39,759 nucleotides of DNA from an uncultured Spartobacteria bacterium. Lineage in GTDB: Bacteria; Verrucomicrobiota; Verrucomicrobiia; Chthoniobacterales; UBA6821. The stretch covers positions 1-39,759 of the forward strand of contig CAIKFI010000003.1 of NCBI GenBank assembly GCA_903826635.1, written 5' to 3'. A model generated the notes under the pieces. That model worked only from the letters and a program-made list of their open reading frames with translations. It had not been told where the DNA came from and searched no databases. This document shows, piece by piece, positions 3,754 through 25,014 of this stretch. A program made the translations under genes and the position numbers. Within the stretch, counting starts at the first letter, position 1. Each line of letters opens with the position of its first letter.

Positions 3754-6700
3754 ATGAAACTTACTGATCTCTTCATCAGGCGCCCTGTTCTTGCGCTGGT
3801 GGTCAACCTAGTGATCCTGCTTGCCGGATTTCAAGCCATCAGGACACTGAACATTCGTCAGTATCCGCGCAGTGACATTGCGGTCATTCAGGTCACGACG
3901 AACTATGTCGGCGCCAACGCCGACCTTGTGCGTGGCTACATCACCACCCCGCTTGAGCGCGTAATCGCGGCGGCGGAGGGCATCGATTACATTGAAAGTG
4001 CAAGCTCCCAAGGTATCAGCACGATCACTGTTCACCTAAAGCTTAACTATGACCCGAACATCGCCTTGACCCAGATCCAGGCGAAACTGGCCCAGGTGCG
4101 CAATGACCTTCCTCCGGAAGCGGAGAGTCCGATGATCGCCCTGCAGAACGCGGACGAACTCCGGGCGGCCATGTATCTGGGATTCTCGGCACCCGGAATG
4201 CAGGACAACCAGATCACTGATTTCCTGGCGCGTGTCATTCAGCCAAAACTCACTGCGATTCCGGGTATCCAGCGCGCCGATATCCTTGGCGGACGAGTCT
4301 ATGCGATGCGCATCTGGCTCAAGGCCGACCGACTCGCCGCACTCGGACTCTCTGCCAGTGACATAAGCCGCGCCCTGCAGGCCAACAATTACCTCGCGGC
4401 CGTAGGCAAAACCAAAGGCTCGATGACTTCGATCAATTTGATTGCCAATACTAATCTAAAAACTCCCGAGGAGTTCAAGGAATTGGTTGTTAAGGAGAAA
4501 GGAGGGGTTCTCGTTCGCCTCAGAGATGTTGCGGATGTGGAGTTGGGTGCCGAGGACTACGACTCAAACATCCGCTTCGATGGAAAAACCGCCAAATTCA
4601 TCGGGATATGGTGCCTGCCCACGGCAAACACCCTTGACGTCTGCTCCATGGTGAACAAGCAGATTCCGGAACTTCGCAAACTTCTCCCGCCGGGAATGTC
4701 GCTTGTTGTTCCCTATGACTCCACCGAATTCATCCGCGATGCGATCAGTGAGGTCTTCAAGACCCTCTCCGAAACCCTCGGCATCGTGGTGCTTGTTATT
4801 TTTCTCTTCCTTGGATCAGTACGCTCGGTGCTGATCCCCGTCATCGCCATTCCCATTTCATTGATAGGCGCTGCCTTTATCATGACAATCTTGGGCTTTA
4901 CGATCAATCTGCTCACCCTTCTGGCCGTGGTGCTGGCGGTGGGCCTGGTCGTTGACGATGCCATTGTCGTCGTGGAGAACGTTGAGCGGCATCTCCACGA
5001 GGGCATGACCCCCTTCAATGCAGCGCTGGCAAGTGGTCGTGAACTGCTAGGACCGATCATTGCGATGACAATCACGCTGGCAGCAGTCTATACACCGATC
5101 GGTCTCCAGGGGGGATTAACGGGCGCGCTTTTCCGAGAGTTTGCGTTCACACTCGCAGGGGCGGTCATCATCTCGGGCATTGTCGCACTGACCCTCTCGC
5201 CCATGATGTCATCCCGGCTCCTTCGTCGCGGAGATGATCAAAAGGGATATGCCGGCTGGGTGAACCGCCGATTTACGTCGATTCAGAAAGGGTATGTCAC
5301 ACTGCTCGGATCGATGCTTCGTCACCGCTGGGCTGTGATTTCCGTAGCGGGTCTTTGGATCCTGATTCTTCCCGTGCTGTATCTCTTTTCTCCAAAAGAG
5401 TTATCGCCAAAAGAGGATCAGGGCATTGTCTATTGCATTGTTCAGACCTCTCCGTTCTCCACAATCGACCAGACGGTCCTCTATGCGGATCTGGTCTACA
5501 ATGCCATGGCCTCGCTTCCTGAAACAGGTCATACGTTCCAATTTTCCTATCCGAGCAGCGGATTTGGAGGAATCCGCACCAAACCCTGGAAGGAACGAAC
5601 CCGGAGTTGCGATCTTCTGGCAAATATCATGAGTGGCAAGTTCTCAGAAATCCCCGGATTGAGGATCATCGCAACCACTCCGCCGGCGCTACCCGGTGGA
5701 AGTAATTTTCCCGTAGAGTTCATCATTTCCTCCACGGCCGAACCATTTCAACTTTTGGAAGCGGCAAACACGCTTGTGAAAACCGCTTTTGCCAGCGGCA
5801 TCTTTATCTTTGCTGATACGGACCTGAAATATGATCAACCTCAGGTCGAAATCACCTTCGATCGTAACAAAGTGGCCGCACTGGGTCTGGATTTACAGAA
5901 AGTGGGATCGGACCTCGGCACTCTTCTCGGCGGCAACTATGTCAATCGCTTCAGCATTCAAGGTCGAAGCTACAAGGTGATCCCTCAACTCAAGCGCGAA
6001 AGCAGGTTGGATCCCGAGGCCCTTGGCAAACTCTACGTCAGCGGACCCGGCAACTCCCTCGTGCAACTCTCGACGTTTGCAACACTGACTTCAACCACGG
6101 AGCCGCGTCAGATCAACCGCTTCCAGCAACTCAACTCGGCCAAGATTTCAGGGATTCTTCCTCCTGGGATCACCGTGGATCAGGCACTTCAAGTCCTCGA
6201 AAAACGTGCCGCGGAAATCCTGCCGCCGGGCTTCGTCATCGATTATTCGGGTGAGTCGCGCCAACTCCGAGCCGAGGGCAATACCTTGGTGGCAACCATG
6301 ATCGTCTCTTTTATCCTGATCTTTCTTGTTCTAGCGGCACAGTTTGAGAGCTTCCGTGATCCATTTATCATTCTCTTCGGTTCAGTTCCGCTAGCCCTTT
6401 CGGGGGCCTTGGTTTTCACTTGCCTTGGAGCCACATCGATCAACATCTATAGCCAGGTCGGACTCATCACTCTGGTTGGACTTGTCGCCAAGAACGGAAT
6501 CCTGATTGTCGAGTTTGCCAATAATTTACAGGAAGGCGGCTTGGATAAGTGGCATGCAATCCTTGGAGCTTCCGGAACGCGACTACGACCCATCCTGATG
6601 ACCACGGCCGCCACTGTCGTCGGCCACACCCCTCTTATTCTGGCAACCGGCCCGGGCGCCGGAGCACGCAATAGCATCGGCATCGTCTTGGTCTCGGGCA

Positions 6701-6853: not shown

Positions 6854-7309
6854 TCAAATGCGGAATTTGATCACTACCTTGTGAACGTCGGCGGGACGTT
6901 CCATCATCACGCCTGGTTGGTGACCGTCCTGGGGTAAAAAGATGACAAAGGACCCCTCATTTAACGTGAAGCGAGAGAGAGGGGGATTGGGCGCTTCATA
7001 AAATTCCACATCCCTTGCCCCGTCATAGGGTGTATGAATCTTCAAGCGTTCGCGCTGCTCATACCCAATGAGTTCGGCTCCCGAAACCATATATTGGATG
7101 TCGCCGTGGACCCGATGAGACTCCCATTTTTTTTCGGAAGCCGGAGCCGTTTTATAACGACTGACGATGGCGACAAGCGCGGAACCATCGATCTCATGGG
7201 GTCCGTTGGGAGTTGTTGGATCGTAGGAAGAAAGCCAGGCGAAGCCCTTCACCAGGGAAGGGTGCACCCCCCTGTAACAGGAAGCGTTGGGAAGAAGATC
7301 GAGGATCAT
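6854..7309 (-). CDS. YhcH/YjgK/YiaL family protein
   Basis: A 151-residue single-domain protein of the YhcH/YjgK/YiaL (EbgC) family, which adopts a cupin-like barrel. Conserved segments are WESHRVHGDIQYMVSG (about 62-77), the FLPQDGHQPGV segment (about 124-134) and VHKVVIKF at the end; their His, Glu and Asp residues fit the metal site of the family. Family members are tied to sugar or sialic-acid handling and some are suspected anomerases, but the role here is unproven. The ATG overlaps the stop of the upstream DUF2156 gene by 4 nt, which puts it last in the queD operon. It is convergent with the RND operon, 13 bp away. Confidence 0.85.
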   Translation of the reverse strand: MILDLLPNASCYRGVHPSLVKGFAWLSSYDPTTPNGPHEIDGSALVAIVSRYKTAPASEKKWESHRVHGDIQYMVSGAELIGYEQRERLKIHTPYDGARDVEFYEAPNPPLSRFTLNEGSFVIFLPQDGHQPGVMMERPADVHKVVIKFRI

Positions 7310-8982
7310 GAGAGCAGCATGTGAAAAAGCCCTTTCGGGGCATGGAGTCGCACCAAGGCAGCGCAGAGGGATGGCAGATGTGCATGTCGCTCATACACAA
7401 GATCCCTCCCCTGCCAGTCAGGATGATACTTCCGCTTGAACTCAAAAAGAGATTTGTATCCGTAGACCTGATTGAAGTGCTCAAAGAGAAAATCAACCAC
7501 TCTTTCACCACCCTGCGCTTTTTCGTCTTTGGATTCAATCCGAGCCAGAGGAGCATTTCCAAGCGAAACCTCTGTGATCCCGAGTGACCTGAACCGGGCG
7601 ACACTTTCGAGGATCAGAAAATCCATCACTCCGCGCACCCCCTCGGCGGAACGCATGAGATCAATCAATCTGCCGCTTCCCTGTGCATAGGAGGGCCAGT
7701 TGGCAAAAGCCAGCAAACGCCCTTCCTTGTCCATGACGCATCCGCTTCCATGGAGCCTAACGGTTTCCGGGGAGAACGATCCGAGATCAAAACCCATCTC
7801 CATCCCGCCTTTTGCGGCAAGCCAAGAGTCAGAAAGAAGTTGCATCTGTGCTTCCAAACCATAGTCGATCGGCACCCCCTCATACCAACGGAAACACCAG
7901 CCAACCTTGCGGGCGTGATTGATGGCGGTTCTTAGCCCCTGAAAGTCCGCACCCTTGAGTTCATAACCAATCAAATGCAACCGAGCATCCTCGGCAATAT
8001 GGAGACCTTGCCATCCAGACCCCTCCCATTCCCACCTGTTCTTCTCATGGCAGCAGTAGAAAGCTGTATGCCAGTCCTGTCTGGTTGCAAAATCACGAAA
8101 GGCATCCATCGTTTGCTGTCGCGCTCCTTCCGGGCCAATCGGCTCGGCCAAAGCCACCGCATAGTTTCTCCAGAGTCCGTAAGAAACAACACTTTCACTC
8201 CCATCCTGTCCGGTGTGGAAAAACCATCGTTTGTCGGGAAGAAGGGCAAAACAGTCCATCGGATCACGGCCATAAAGCTGGATCAGATTCATCACTCGCT
8301 CCCTCTCCCCATCAACCGCGCGATGACGATGTGCTAGAACTGGTCGAAATATCAGGAGCAGTGTTCCAAAAATCACGATTGCGGAAGCAAGTTGAACCCC
8401 CTGAAAAGACCTCAGTGCACGTTTTGATTGATGACCTTCAGCCGCCAGATTTTGAAAAAGCACAAGACCTGCTGAGGCACGAGCGATCACCCCCGGTTCA
8501 CGTTGAAGGTGAGCTTGCGGTGCGTAATGCCAGACTGTGGAGTATGAATAGATGAGCAAGGCTCCCATTGCACTCCCGCCGATCAGGAAGCCCCATCGGG
8601 AGGAAGCAGCATCGGAATCGGCCGTGAAATCAGCGTGTCGCCAGAGTAAAATAGTAAAAAACAACAAGGACCAGGTTGCATGCTGCCAGTCCCACGCCCG
8701 CCCGAGATGAAGAAGAACCGTGACCCCCATGGCGGAAGCGGCCACCATCCAGGCCGTCCTTTTGCCGCGAAAGATTCCCCGACTCACCATGATCTGAATC
8801 AGTCCAAAAAGCAGGATAAGCAGACGACTTCCCTGGGAGACCTCCAGCGGAACCCATTGTTCCATCCAATCCGCAACTGTCTGGGACTTCGGAATAATGG
8901 CCTCGATCACATTCGCCAGTCCCGCAATTAGCAGCATCCAGGCAAGGGATTGACGGGCAATACGTGAAGGAATCACTTTCAT
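7306..8982 (-). CDS. DUF2156 membrane protein, aminoacyl-phosphatidylglycerol synthase (MprF/LpiA)-like
   Basis: A 558-residue protein. The start at 8982 was chosen over the ORF-track start at 9024 because it follows an AAGGAA element at good spacing and forms an ATGA overlap with the preceding stop. About six hydrophobic segments occupy the first 235 residues, fewer than the 14 of full MprF. The C-terminal 320 residues form the DUF2156 acyltransferase-type catalytic domain (LYGRDPMDCFALLPDKRWFF, NHARKVGWCFRWYEG and GVRGVMDFLILESVARF segments). In MprF/LpiA this domain moves lysine or alanine from aminoacyl-tRNA to phosphatidylglycerol, lowering the negative surface charge. Amino acid and lipid acceptor are inferred. 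The partner upstream resembles the AcvB/VirJ hydrolase. Confidence 0.83.
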   Translation of the reverse strand: MKVIPSRIARQSLAWMLLIAGLANVIEAIIPKSQTVADWMEQWVPLEVSQGSRLLILLFGLIQIMVSRGIFRGKRTAWMVAASAMGVTVLLHLGRAWDWQHATWSLLFFTILLWRHADFTADSDAASSRWGFLIGGSAMGALLIYSYSTVWHYAPQAHLQREPGVIARASAGLVLFQNLAAEGHQSKRALRSFQGVQLASAIVIFGTLLLIFRPVLAHRHRAVDGERERVMNLIQLYGRDPMDCFALLPDKRWFFHTGQDGSESVVSYGLWRNYAVALAEPIGPEGARQQTMDAFRDFATRQDWHTAFYCCHEKNRWEWEGSGWQGLHIAEDARLHLIGYELKGADFQGLRTAINHARKVGWCFRWYEGVPIDYGLEAQMQLLSDSWLAAKGGMEMGFDLGSFSPETVRLHGSGCVMDKEGRLLAFANWPSYAQGSGRLIDLMRSAEGVRGVMDFLILESVARFRSLGITEVSLGNAPLARIESKDEKAQGGERVVDFLFEHFNQVYGYKSLFEFKRKYHPDWQGRDLVYERHAHLPSLCAALVRLHAPKGLFHMLLS

Positions 8983-9803
8983 GGACAGTTCCTTTTGGAA
9001 GAGGAGAAAGAGGCCTGAGAGCACTGCAGCAACCAGTCGGCAGCTTTACAGACTTCCACCTGAAAGAATTCGTCGGCATTGCCGAAAAAGTGACCATTCC
9101 CTTGGATCATAATAATTCGGTGATGGATCTGATTTTTTCCGCTCCCTTCAAACCACTTGGTTGAGTCTAGAGGGTCTAAGGTCCCGTGAATCTGTGCAAT
9201 GGGTATTTGTCCGAGCGATGACGCCAAATCCGCAAGCCCAAAACTCCCAACTCCATGAGGCGTCATACCGATCAGATCGGCCTCCGTGATGCCATACCTC
9301 CCTCTCTCCCCGGGAGCGACGAGCAGCAAACCTCTTGGCAGGCATTCCGAAGCCCCTTGTCGGGAAAGCATCCATGCAGAGCCTGAGACAGCCTGTTCGG
9401 CACCTGTCGAATATCCGCCATAGAAAACAGGTTTGCCTTGCGACCTCCCGCCGATCCCAACAGAGACCATGGTTTGCAAATCCCGGCCCAAGATTTGAGC
9501 GCCATAAGGAACAAAGCGGTCCGACGCATACTGCCGGCAATCCCAACCGATCACGCGCCACCCATCCAACGCAAGGGATCGGCAGGCACGTTCTTCCCAG
9601 ATTTTCCAGCCCCCATCTCCCGACCCAAAGAGCAGGGTGCCTTTGATTTCACCCTTCGGTTCATAAACAAGCACTGGGAAATTCCCACGAGAAAGCCTCA
9701 AGACAATTGTTTGAGGATCCGAAGTTCCCCGCGGCAGGGAATTGTTTGCACACCCCGTGCTGATAAGCATCAAAATCAGCAACAGGCGCTGGGGACGCCT
9801 CAT
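8979..9803 (-). CDS. AcvB/VirJ-like alpha/beta-hydrolase lipoprotein
   Basis: A 274-residue exported protein. The N-terminus is a lipoprotein signal (MRRPQRLLLILMLISTGC, lipidated Cys18). The body reads as a serine hydrolase of the VirJ type: the strand LLFGSGDGGW (GDGGW at 62-66), GWRVIGWD, the nucleophile elbow GYSTG with Ser132, and a late GNGHFFG segment carrying the likely catalytic His. AcvB and VirJ of Agrobacterium belong to this family, and AcvB is known to hydrolyse lysyl-phosphatidylglycerol. Here the gene is followed at a 4-nt overlap by the synthase-like DUF2156 gene, as in lpiA-acvB loci, which supports a lipid-related role. The N-terminal extra domain of AcvB is missing. Activity is inferred. 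Confidence 0.75.
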   Translation of the reverse strand: MRRPQRLLLILMLISTGCANNSLPRGTSDPQTIVLRLSRGNFPVLVYEPKGEIKGTLLFGSGDGGWKIWEERACRSLALDGWRVIGWDCRQYASDRFVPYGAQILGRDLQTMVSVGIGGRSQGKPVFYGGYSTGAEQAVSGSAWMLSRQGASECLPRGLLLVAPGERGRYGITEADLIGMTPHGVGSFGLADLASSLGQIPIAQIHGTLDPLDSTKWFEGSGKNQIHHRIIMIQGNGHFFGNADEFFQVEVCKAADWLLQCSQASFSSSKRNCP

Positions 9804-9816
9804 GAATTGAAAGGCG

Positions 9817-10179
9817 TTACTTGCCGCGATAACTGCAACGGGCGGTCGGGGTCTCGTGGATCACGATTTCGGCCAAGCCCGGAAGATAAGGTAGGAGCCT
9901 CTCCCAAAACCACTCGCACATATTCTCGATCGTCGGATTCTCCAGTCCTGGAATATCGTTGAGATAGGAATGGTCAAGTTGCTCCATCAAAGGGTCCATC
10001 GCCCTACTGATCCTAGAATGATCATAGAGCCATCCCGTCATAGGATCCTTCTCACCCTCGACAGAGATCTCCACCTTGAAGCTATGCCCATGCATTCTAC
10101 CGCACTTGTGATCGGCAGGCACTCGTGGAAGAGTCTGCGCAGCTTCAAATGTGAAATCCTTGGTTAATCGGACATGCAT
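9817..10179 (-). CDS. queD: 6-carboxy-5,6,7,8-tetrahydropterin synthase
   Basis: A 120-residue QueD of normal length. The ATG at 10179 was chosen because AAGGAG precedes it and the protein then begins MHVRLTKDFTFEAA like E. coli QueD; the longer ORF-track form runs back into the upstream gene. Motifs: HKCGRMHGHSFKVEI with the catalytic Cys and two zinc His, LYDHSRI, LDHSYLNDIPGLENPTIEN and the C-terminal ETPTARCSYRG. The first zinc ligand, His in FEAAH of E. coli, reads Gln here (FEAAQTLP). The enzyme converts dihydroneopterin triphosphate to carboxytetrahydropterin for queuosine synthesis. It lies 13 bp before the AcvB-like gene; no other queuosine gene is in the window. Confidence 0.9.
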   Translation of the reverse strand: MHVRLTKDFTFEAAQTLPRVPADHKCGRMHGHSFKVEISVEGEKDPMTGWLYDHSRISRAMDPLMEQLDHSYLNDIPGLENPTIENMCEWFWERLLPYLPGLAEIVIHETPTARCSYRGK

Positions 10180-24396: not shown

Positions 24397-25014
24397 TTAT
24401 TGAATTTTACCCGATCGACCCGACCGAGGATCTGATCCTGTCACGGGAACGGTATGACCGCCATCCTTGAGTTGACGGATTCCGGCGGAGACGTAACCGA
24501 TTCCACTCAAAAGCGTCACCACACCGGAAACCCAGACAACAGGATCACAATGACTCCACTGGAGCATCACGACGGCAACCGTTAGCATCTGCAAAAAGGT
24601 GGACGCCTTGCCGAGGAGGGAGGGATGCACCTCAAGATGATCGTTCAGCAAACGAAGCACGCCGCAGCCGCCTAAAATGATGACATCGCGGGAAATCACC
24701 AGCACGGGATACCAGACAGGAAGTTCATAAGGCCATTTGGTGATACTCAGCGTGATGATGGCAGTCAGCATTAGTCCTTTGTCAGCCAAAGGATCAAGGA
24801 CGGCTCCGAGCCGTGATTTCAGATGAAAGCGTCGTGCCAGCCAACCATCAACACCGTCACTCAGGGAGGCGATCAGAAAAACACCGATGGTGGCCATTCT
24901 GAGGGATTCGTTTGGGTGTCCGGTCACGGCCGTCTTGCCATAATAGATTGCAAGCACGACAAAGACCGGAATCAAGAGGATCCTGGCGATGGTGATCTGG
25001 TTGGGAAGGGTCAT
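24397..25014 (-). CDS. pgsA: CDP-diacylglycerol-glycerol-3-phosphate 3-phosphatidyltransferase
   Basis: A 205-residue CDP-alcohol phosphatidyltransferase. The active-site motif DGVDGWLARRF..GAVLDPLADK (about residues 53-79) has the spacing D-G-x2-D-G-x2-A-R-x8-G-x3-D-x3-D. It starts MTLPNQITIARILLIP, as PgsA proteins do. About six membrane helices. It makes phosphatidylglycerol phosphate, so it supplies the likely lipid substrate of the DUF2156 protein encoded elsewhere in the window. A polar C-terminal tail is specific to this protein. It is divergent from the prenyl synthase gene (gap 90 bp) and leads into der. Confidence 0.92.
   Translation of the reverse strand: MTLPNQITIARILLIPVFVVLAIYYGKTAVTGHPNESLRMATIGVFLIASLSDGVDGWLARRFHLKSRLGAVLDPLADKGLMLTAIITLSITKWPYELPVWYPVLVISRDVIILGGCGVLRLLNDHLEVHPSLLGKASTFLQMLTVAVVMLQWSHCDPVVWVSGVVTLLSGIGYVSAGIRQLKDGGHTVPVTGSDPRSGRSGKIQ

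Follow-up and report, generated by a model that had tools for sequence, protein, structure and literature searches.

The window, a stretch of 39,759 nt from an uncultured freshwater Spartobacteria bacterium (Verrucomicrobiota), carries a run of four tightly packed genes on one strand (Table 1), in which queD is followed after a gap of 13 nt by a gene for a VirJ/AcvB-type hydrolase, a gene for a predicted aminoacyl-lipid synthase and yhcH. The hydrolase/synthase junction reads CATGAAAG, its ATGA being common to the TGA stop of the hydrolase and the ATG start of the synthase, as the initial annotation had described, and the synthase/yhcH junction (CATGATCC) overlaps in like manner. The ATGA overlap between hydrolase and synthase is also present at a relative's locus (L006, positions 4980–4983).

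Table 1 Features of the hydrolase–synthase locus and its neighbours in the window.
Feature	Position	Strand	Basis
queD; upstream neighbour, host operon, outside the lipid module	9817..10179	(-)	PTPS/QueD match
VirJ/AcvB-type alpha/beta hydrolase, 274 aa, predicted to be exported and to act on an aminoacyl lipid	8979..9803	(-)	Pfam, phmmer, profile
N-terminal export segment MRRPQRLLLILMLISTGC of the hydrolase, imperfect lipobox, Cys18	9750..9803	(-)	sequence
ATGA stop/start overlap, hydrolase/synthase	8979..8982	(-)	sequence
Predicted aminoacyl-lipid (phosphatidylglycerol) synthase, 558 aa	7306..8982	(-)	PF09924; MprF 7f47 alignment
ATGA overlap, synthase stop/yhcH start; downstream edge of the cassette	7306..7309	(-)	sequence
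yhcH (DUF386); downstream neighbour	6854..7309	(-)	Pfam match

While the location of the pair in a queD–yhcH operon had initially been taken as meaningful, this operon exists without the pair in most of the genus. All 16 genomes of the genus encode queD, yhcH follows it directly in 13 of them (empty sites, L137–L149), and the remaining three, the window genome among them, have the pair between the two genes. Since queD leads straight into yhcH in these 13 congeners, the pair is a cassette with ATGA joints that either entered an older operon or dropped out of it, and we rejected queD–yhcH as its functional context.

The hydrolase carries the motifs GSGDGGW and GGYSTG and matched the Pfam VirJ family (PF06057) at 25.4 bits, against a curated cut-off of 22. 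It also matched the solved AcvB structure (9xhm; phmmer E 4.5e-5), and a profile built from 16 family members did so at E 1.4e-19, which puts AcvB some 13 orders of magnitude (E-value) ahead of the next solved structure; other alpha/beta hydrolases matched this profile too, weakly. Profile–profile comparison pointed (97.6%) to a verrucomicrobial AcvB-like protein adjoining a full MprF. These searches uphold the VirJ-type identity proposed earlier and, where placement in an unrelated esterase family had been set beforehand as a test, point to AcvB/VirJ instead. The narrow Pfam margin and the weak profile matches could still speak for an unrelated esterase or lipase merely co-transcribed with the synthase and without functional link to it. 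We consider such a coincidence extremely improbable given the lead of AcvB, as well as the repeated adjacency, the nine gene fusions and the catalytic decay in a genus without the synthase that are described below. An AlphaFold2 model of the window hydrolase, with two relatives in the input, had a pLDDT of 32, and our fold assignment comes from sequence profiles only.

The operon encoding AcvB and LpiA in Agrobacterium tumefaciens (9XHM, PMC13197417) likewise sets an alpha/beta hydrolase, periplasmic in this case, beside an MprF-type synthase, and GDGGW, GxSxG and the equivalents of AcvB Ser336, His433 and Asp271 are kept in the window family. AcvB differs in being soluble, in having two domains and in carrying Asp370, an Arg in the window family. 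Pfam assigned a single domain to the 274-aa window hydrolase, from which the N-terminal non-catalytic alpha/beta domain of AcvB is absent. The initial annotation was correct on this short form, though not in treating it as unusual: Agrobacterium VirJ is single-domain as well, and the catalytic domain alone suffices (PMC13135905). VirJ, encoded on the octopine Ti plasmid, is an exported protein with a length near 250 aa, and its Ser and His recur in the window hydrolase, but it sits between virA and virB with no adjoining synthase and cleaves Lys-PG (PMC13135905).

Rule-based prediction placed a hydrophobic N-terminal segment in the window hydrolase and nearly all of its relatives. Compared with the lipobox pattern [LVI][ASTVI][GAS]C, the window copy (LISTGC) is borderline, with an off-pattern Ser at -3, whereas V-T-G-C in the hydrolases of two close relatives (LTLIVTGC) and V-S-A-C in that of G617 fit it. 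The earlier description of the hydrolase as a lipoprotein is likely to hold for the close relatives and uncertain for the window copy. Elsewhere in the family, hydrolases paired with full MprF have a basic and hydrophobic N-terminal anchor, fused ones are tethered through their own helices, and others begin with what resembles a plain signal peptide. AcvB is soluble and binds the membrane via a loop (PMC13197417); tethering appears to be a frequent, though not universal, difference from it.

Outside one degenerate genus (g30), every one of the 29 members keeps the triad of the hydrolase (Ser132, Asp210 and His238). Ser132 aligns to the AcvB nucleophile Ser336, and His238, compared with AcvB His433, is conserved as well. 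Asp271 and Asp340 of AcvB touch the alpha-amino group of the substrate. The former corresponds to Asp63 of the window and is kept in 28/29 intact members; the latter is Glu136 in the window and Val, Ala, Thr or Gly in the fusions. Asp370 of AcvB, which is tied to lysine recognition and is Thr or Ser in Ala-PG species (PMC13197417), falls on Arg169 of the window hydrolase in two independent alignments, and an Arg occupies this column in 32/32 members, within the motif RGR[YF]G. Because this Asp is replaced by an invariant Arg, the amino acid on the lipid is probably not lysine, and we rejected the lysyl-PG reading of the initial annotation; the residues suggest an amino acid that is most likely neutral and possibly acidic. 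Given also the replacement of Asp340 in the fusions, the difference in substrate may be larger than assumed.

A rival reading is a relay, in which the hydrolase domain would move the aminoacyl group from a lipid carrier to some other molecule in the periplasm, such as a glycan, lipid A or a protein. The invariant Arg169 is not shared with AcvB and might allow such an acceptor to be used, and the fusion of donor-making and donor-using domains would suit such a role. Ser-type alpha/beta hydrolases are able to act as transacylases. We nevertheless regard a relay as unlikely, as all characterised relatives (AcvB, VirJ and PA0919, the last as cited in PMC13197417) are hydrolases, and no acceptor-pathway gene lies beside the pair in the window, where queD and yhcH form an unrelated host operon. 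As cited in PMC13197417, PA0919 of Pseudomonas aeruginosa is a VirJ-type protein from an Ala-PG-making species in which the Asp370 position is also replaced, though by Thr or Ser rather than by the Arg of the window family.

The initial annotation had called the partner a DUF2156 aminoacyl-lipid-synthase-like gene, and our searches agree. The synthase scored 199.8 bits against PF09924 (LPG_synthase_C; cut-off 27.5) and aligned to residues 337–839 of MprF (7f47; E 1e-38), giving an architecture of the last six MprF membrane helices and the LPG_synthase_C catalytic domain. Pfam found no flippase half (PF03706) in its 558 aa, while full-length MprF is near 850 aa and LpiA, by contrast, keeps this half. 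Against the NCBIfam MprF equivalog model it scored 309.6 bits (cut-off 600) over profile positions 318–838 only, and against the LysX model 115 bits, matched over the whole length (10–544). The lysyl-tRNA synthetase domain that is the hallmark of LysX is absent from it by Pfam and NCBIfam models. We know of no hydrolase partner of LysX.

In LysX and other short MprF homologues (PMC10580965), as in the window synthase, a short membrane region precedes the synthase domain and the flippase half is missing; LysX differs in its C-terminal lysyl-tRNA synthetase. LysX of Corynebacterium and mycobacteria yields lysyl-diacylglycerol (PMC10580965). This precedent, the whole-length match to LysX and the flippase half missing from both raise the possibility that the short synthase makes aminoacyl-diacylglycerol or a similar lipid, which the hydrolase then cleaves. 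That substrate seems doubtful, however: the score against MprF far exceeds that against LysX, the synthase is without an attached lysyl-tRNA synthetase domain, and the window genome encodes PgsA (contig C54), so that phosphatidylglycerol can be made. As for the flippase, a single stand-alone PF03706 protein (C34) is encoded in this genome and none was found in G120, another genome with the pair; the lipid may cross the membrane through the six helices of the synthase or with the help of a different scramblase. A second PgsA-like phosphatidyltransferase is encoded within the window (24397–25014, minus strand, 112 bits).

The pairing is conserved well beyond the window. Four of 38 relatives encode the hydrolase, and the same four encode the synthase, in each case as its direct neighbour (Fisher 1.4e-5, a value that ignores shared ancestry), and among 388 genomes of the phylum a VirJ match occurred in 17, of which 16 also had PF09924 (Fisher 6e-7, likewise ignoring shared ancestry). 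Across 384 genomes sampled from the class, the hydrolase profile scored above 70 bits in 28: seven with the fused form, nine with a short synthase adjoining, seven with a full-length MprF adjoining, one with the hydrolase apart (G581), three with degenerate copies and one wreck (G445). One hydrolase next to a full-length MprF is frame-broken (G302). The synthase adjoins or is fused in 22 of the 23 class genomes with an intact hydrolase, the exception being G581 (66% complete), where the hydrolase lies away from any complete synthase; a second, unpaired copy occurs in G656.

Several individual loci vary this arrangement. Members of the same hydrolase family with an N-terminal membrane anchor accompany full-length MprF at L071 (4373–5176), L110, L111, L113, L116 and L120, and two tandem hydrolases precede one short synthase at L115 (3362–5147, G478). 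Remnants of both genes lie side by side at L123 (3523–4364, G445), either decaying together or misassembled. In genus g30 (G113, G473 and G560), all three triad residues of the hydrolase (Ser, Asp and His) are gone, and no PF09924 gene was found in these genomes; since loss of the partner goes with catalytic loss, this one lineage supports a shared pathway. The VirJ-like proteins of g30 (L073 3586–5370, L121 2200–4143 and L122 2367–3317) keep the Arg motif and are possible pseudoenzymes.

In nine genomes, hydrolase and synthase form one polypeptide (eight intact frames and one cut at contig ends). Seven fused ORFs of 843–877 aa exceed the cut-offs for both VirJ (fusion scores of 26–39 bits) and LPG_synthase_C, and the window hydrolase and synthase align nearly end to end with the two parts of the fusions. 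The eighth is in G583; in the ninth, G252, the halves run off two contig ends and the linker sequence matches. An assembly artefact was rejected as their source, as the nine genomes are spread over two classes (three families, five genera) and members of a lineage have similar linkers. The coupling of an AcvB/VirJ-like hydrolase to a predicted aminoacyl-lipid synthase in Verrucomicrobiota, which the initial annotation had put forward from a single locus, is conserved across the class and extends to this fused form.

All eight intact fusions, and none of 11 unfused short synthases, carry an extra helix before the first transmembrane helix of the synthase, mostly of the form SPLWPAAAL...LIFLF followed by basic residues. 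With six helices alone the fused hydrolase would lie in the cytoplasm; a seventh would place it in the periplasm with the synthase still inside, and this is the orientation suggested by hydrophobicity and the known topology of MprF. We found no report of a VirJ–MprF fusion in the open-access literature. AcvB and LpiA are separate proteins, and in the papers searched no fusion of PA0919 to a synthase is reported. The module of aminoacyl-lipid synthase and hydrolase is known; the main novelty is its fused form.

Trees of the two proteins agree only in part. In the synthase tree, the 20 rows of short synthases, whether fused or not, are separated from full-length MprF as a single group (100/100), within which the unfused ones cluster together (99/98) and fused ones fall on both sides of them, with weak support (87/72). 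An ancestral fusion that was later split would fit this weakly supported topology. The hydrolase tree unites the fused hydrolases (97/95) and places the window copy with G617 and with those hydrolases that accompany full MprF. This partial disagreement may reflect an exchange of partners or an error of reconstruction, and we claim no direction of change.

Taken together, our data suggest, with a probability of about 0.78, that the gene pair forms a module that both makes and breaks an aminoacylated lipid of the membrane. On the cytoplasmic side, the synthase would take the amino acid from aminoacyl-tRNA and attach it by an ester bond to phosphatidylglycerol, or to a similar glycerolipid, within the inner leaflet of the inner membrane. 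Lipid reaching the outer leaflet would then be cleaved by the membrane-tethered periplasmic hydrolase via Ser132-Asp210-His238 into lipid and free amino acid, setting the steady-state surface charge. We infer that both enzymes act on the same lipid and that the second reaction is hydrolysis rather than transfer. ATGA coupling would hold hydrolase and synthase near a fixed ratio, and fusion would achieve the same in relatives.

Since the genes are fused into one membrane-spanning protein in related bacteria, the two opposing reactions very probably constitute one unit. We also lean toward a more specific proposal, that Verrucomicrobiota possess a transmembrane make-and-break enzyme in which the hydrolase replaces the flippase half of MprF N-terminally and opposes the synthase on the same non-lysyl aminoacyl lipid, with the overlapping gene pair of the window as its two-gene form.

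In the literature we found, the characterised AcvB/VirJ-type aminoacyl-lipid hydrolases are proteobacterial, and there the synthase is a protein of its own. That the two occur fused in nature strongly indicates that the opposing steps belong together, outside Proteobacteria and away from virulence. Fusion fixes a one-to-one ratio across the membrane and offers a single construct for testing the control of membrane charge. From the Asp-to-Arg swap at the position that recognises lysine, we would expect this hydrolase family to have a new range of substrates.
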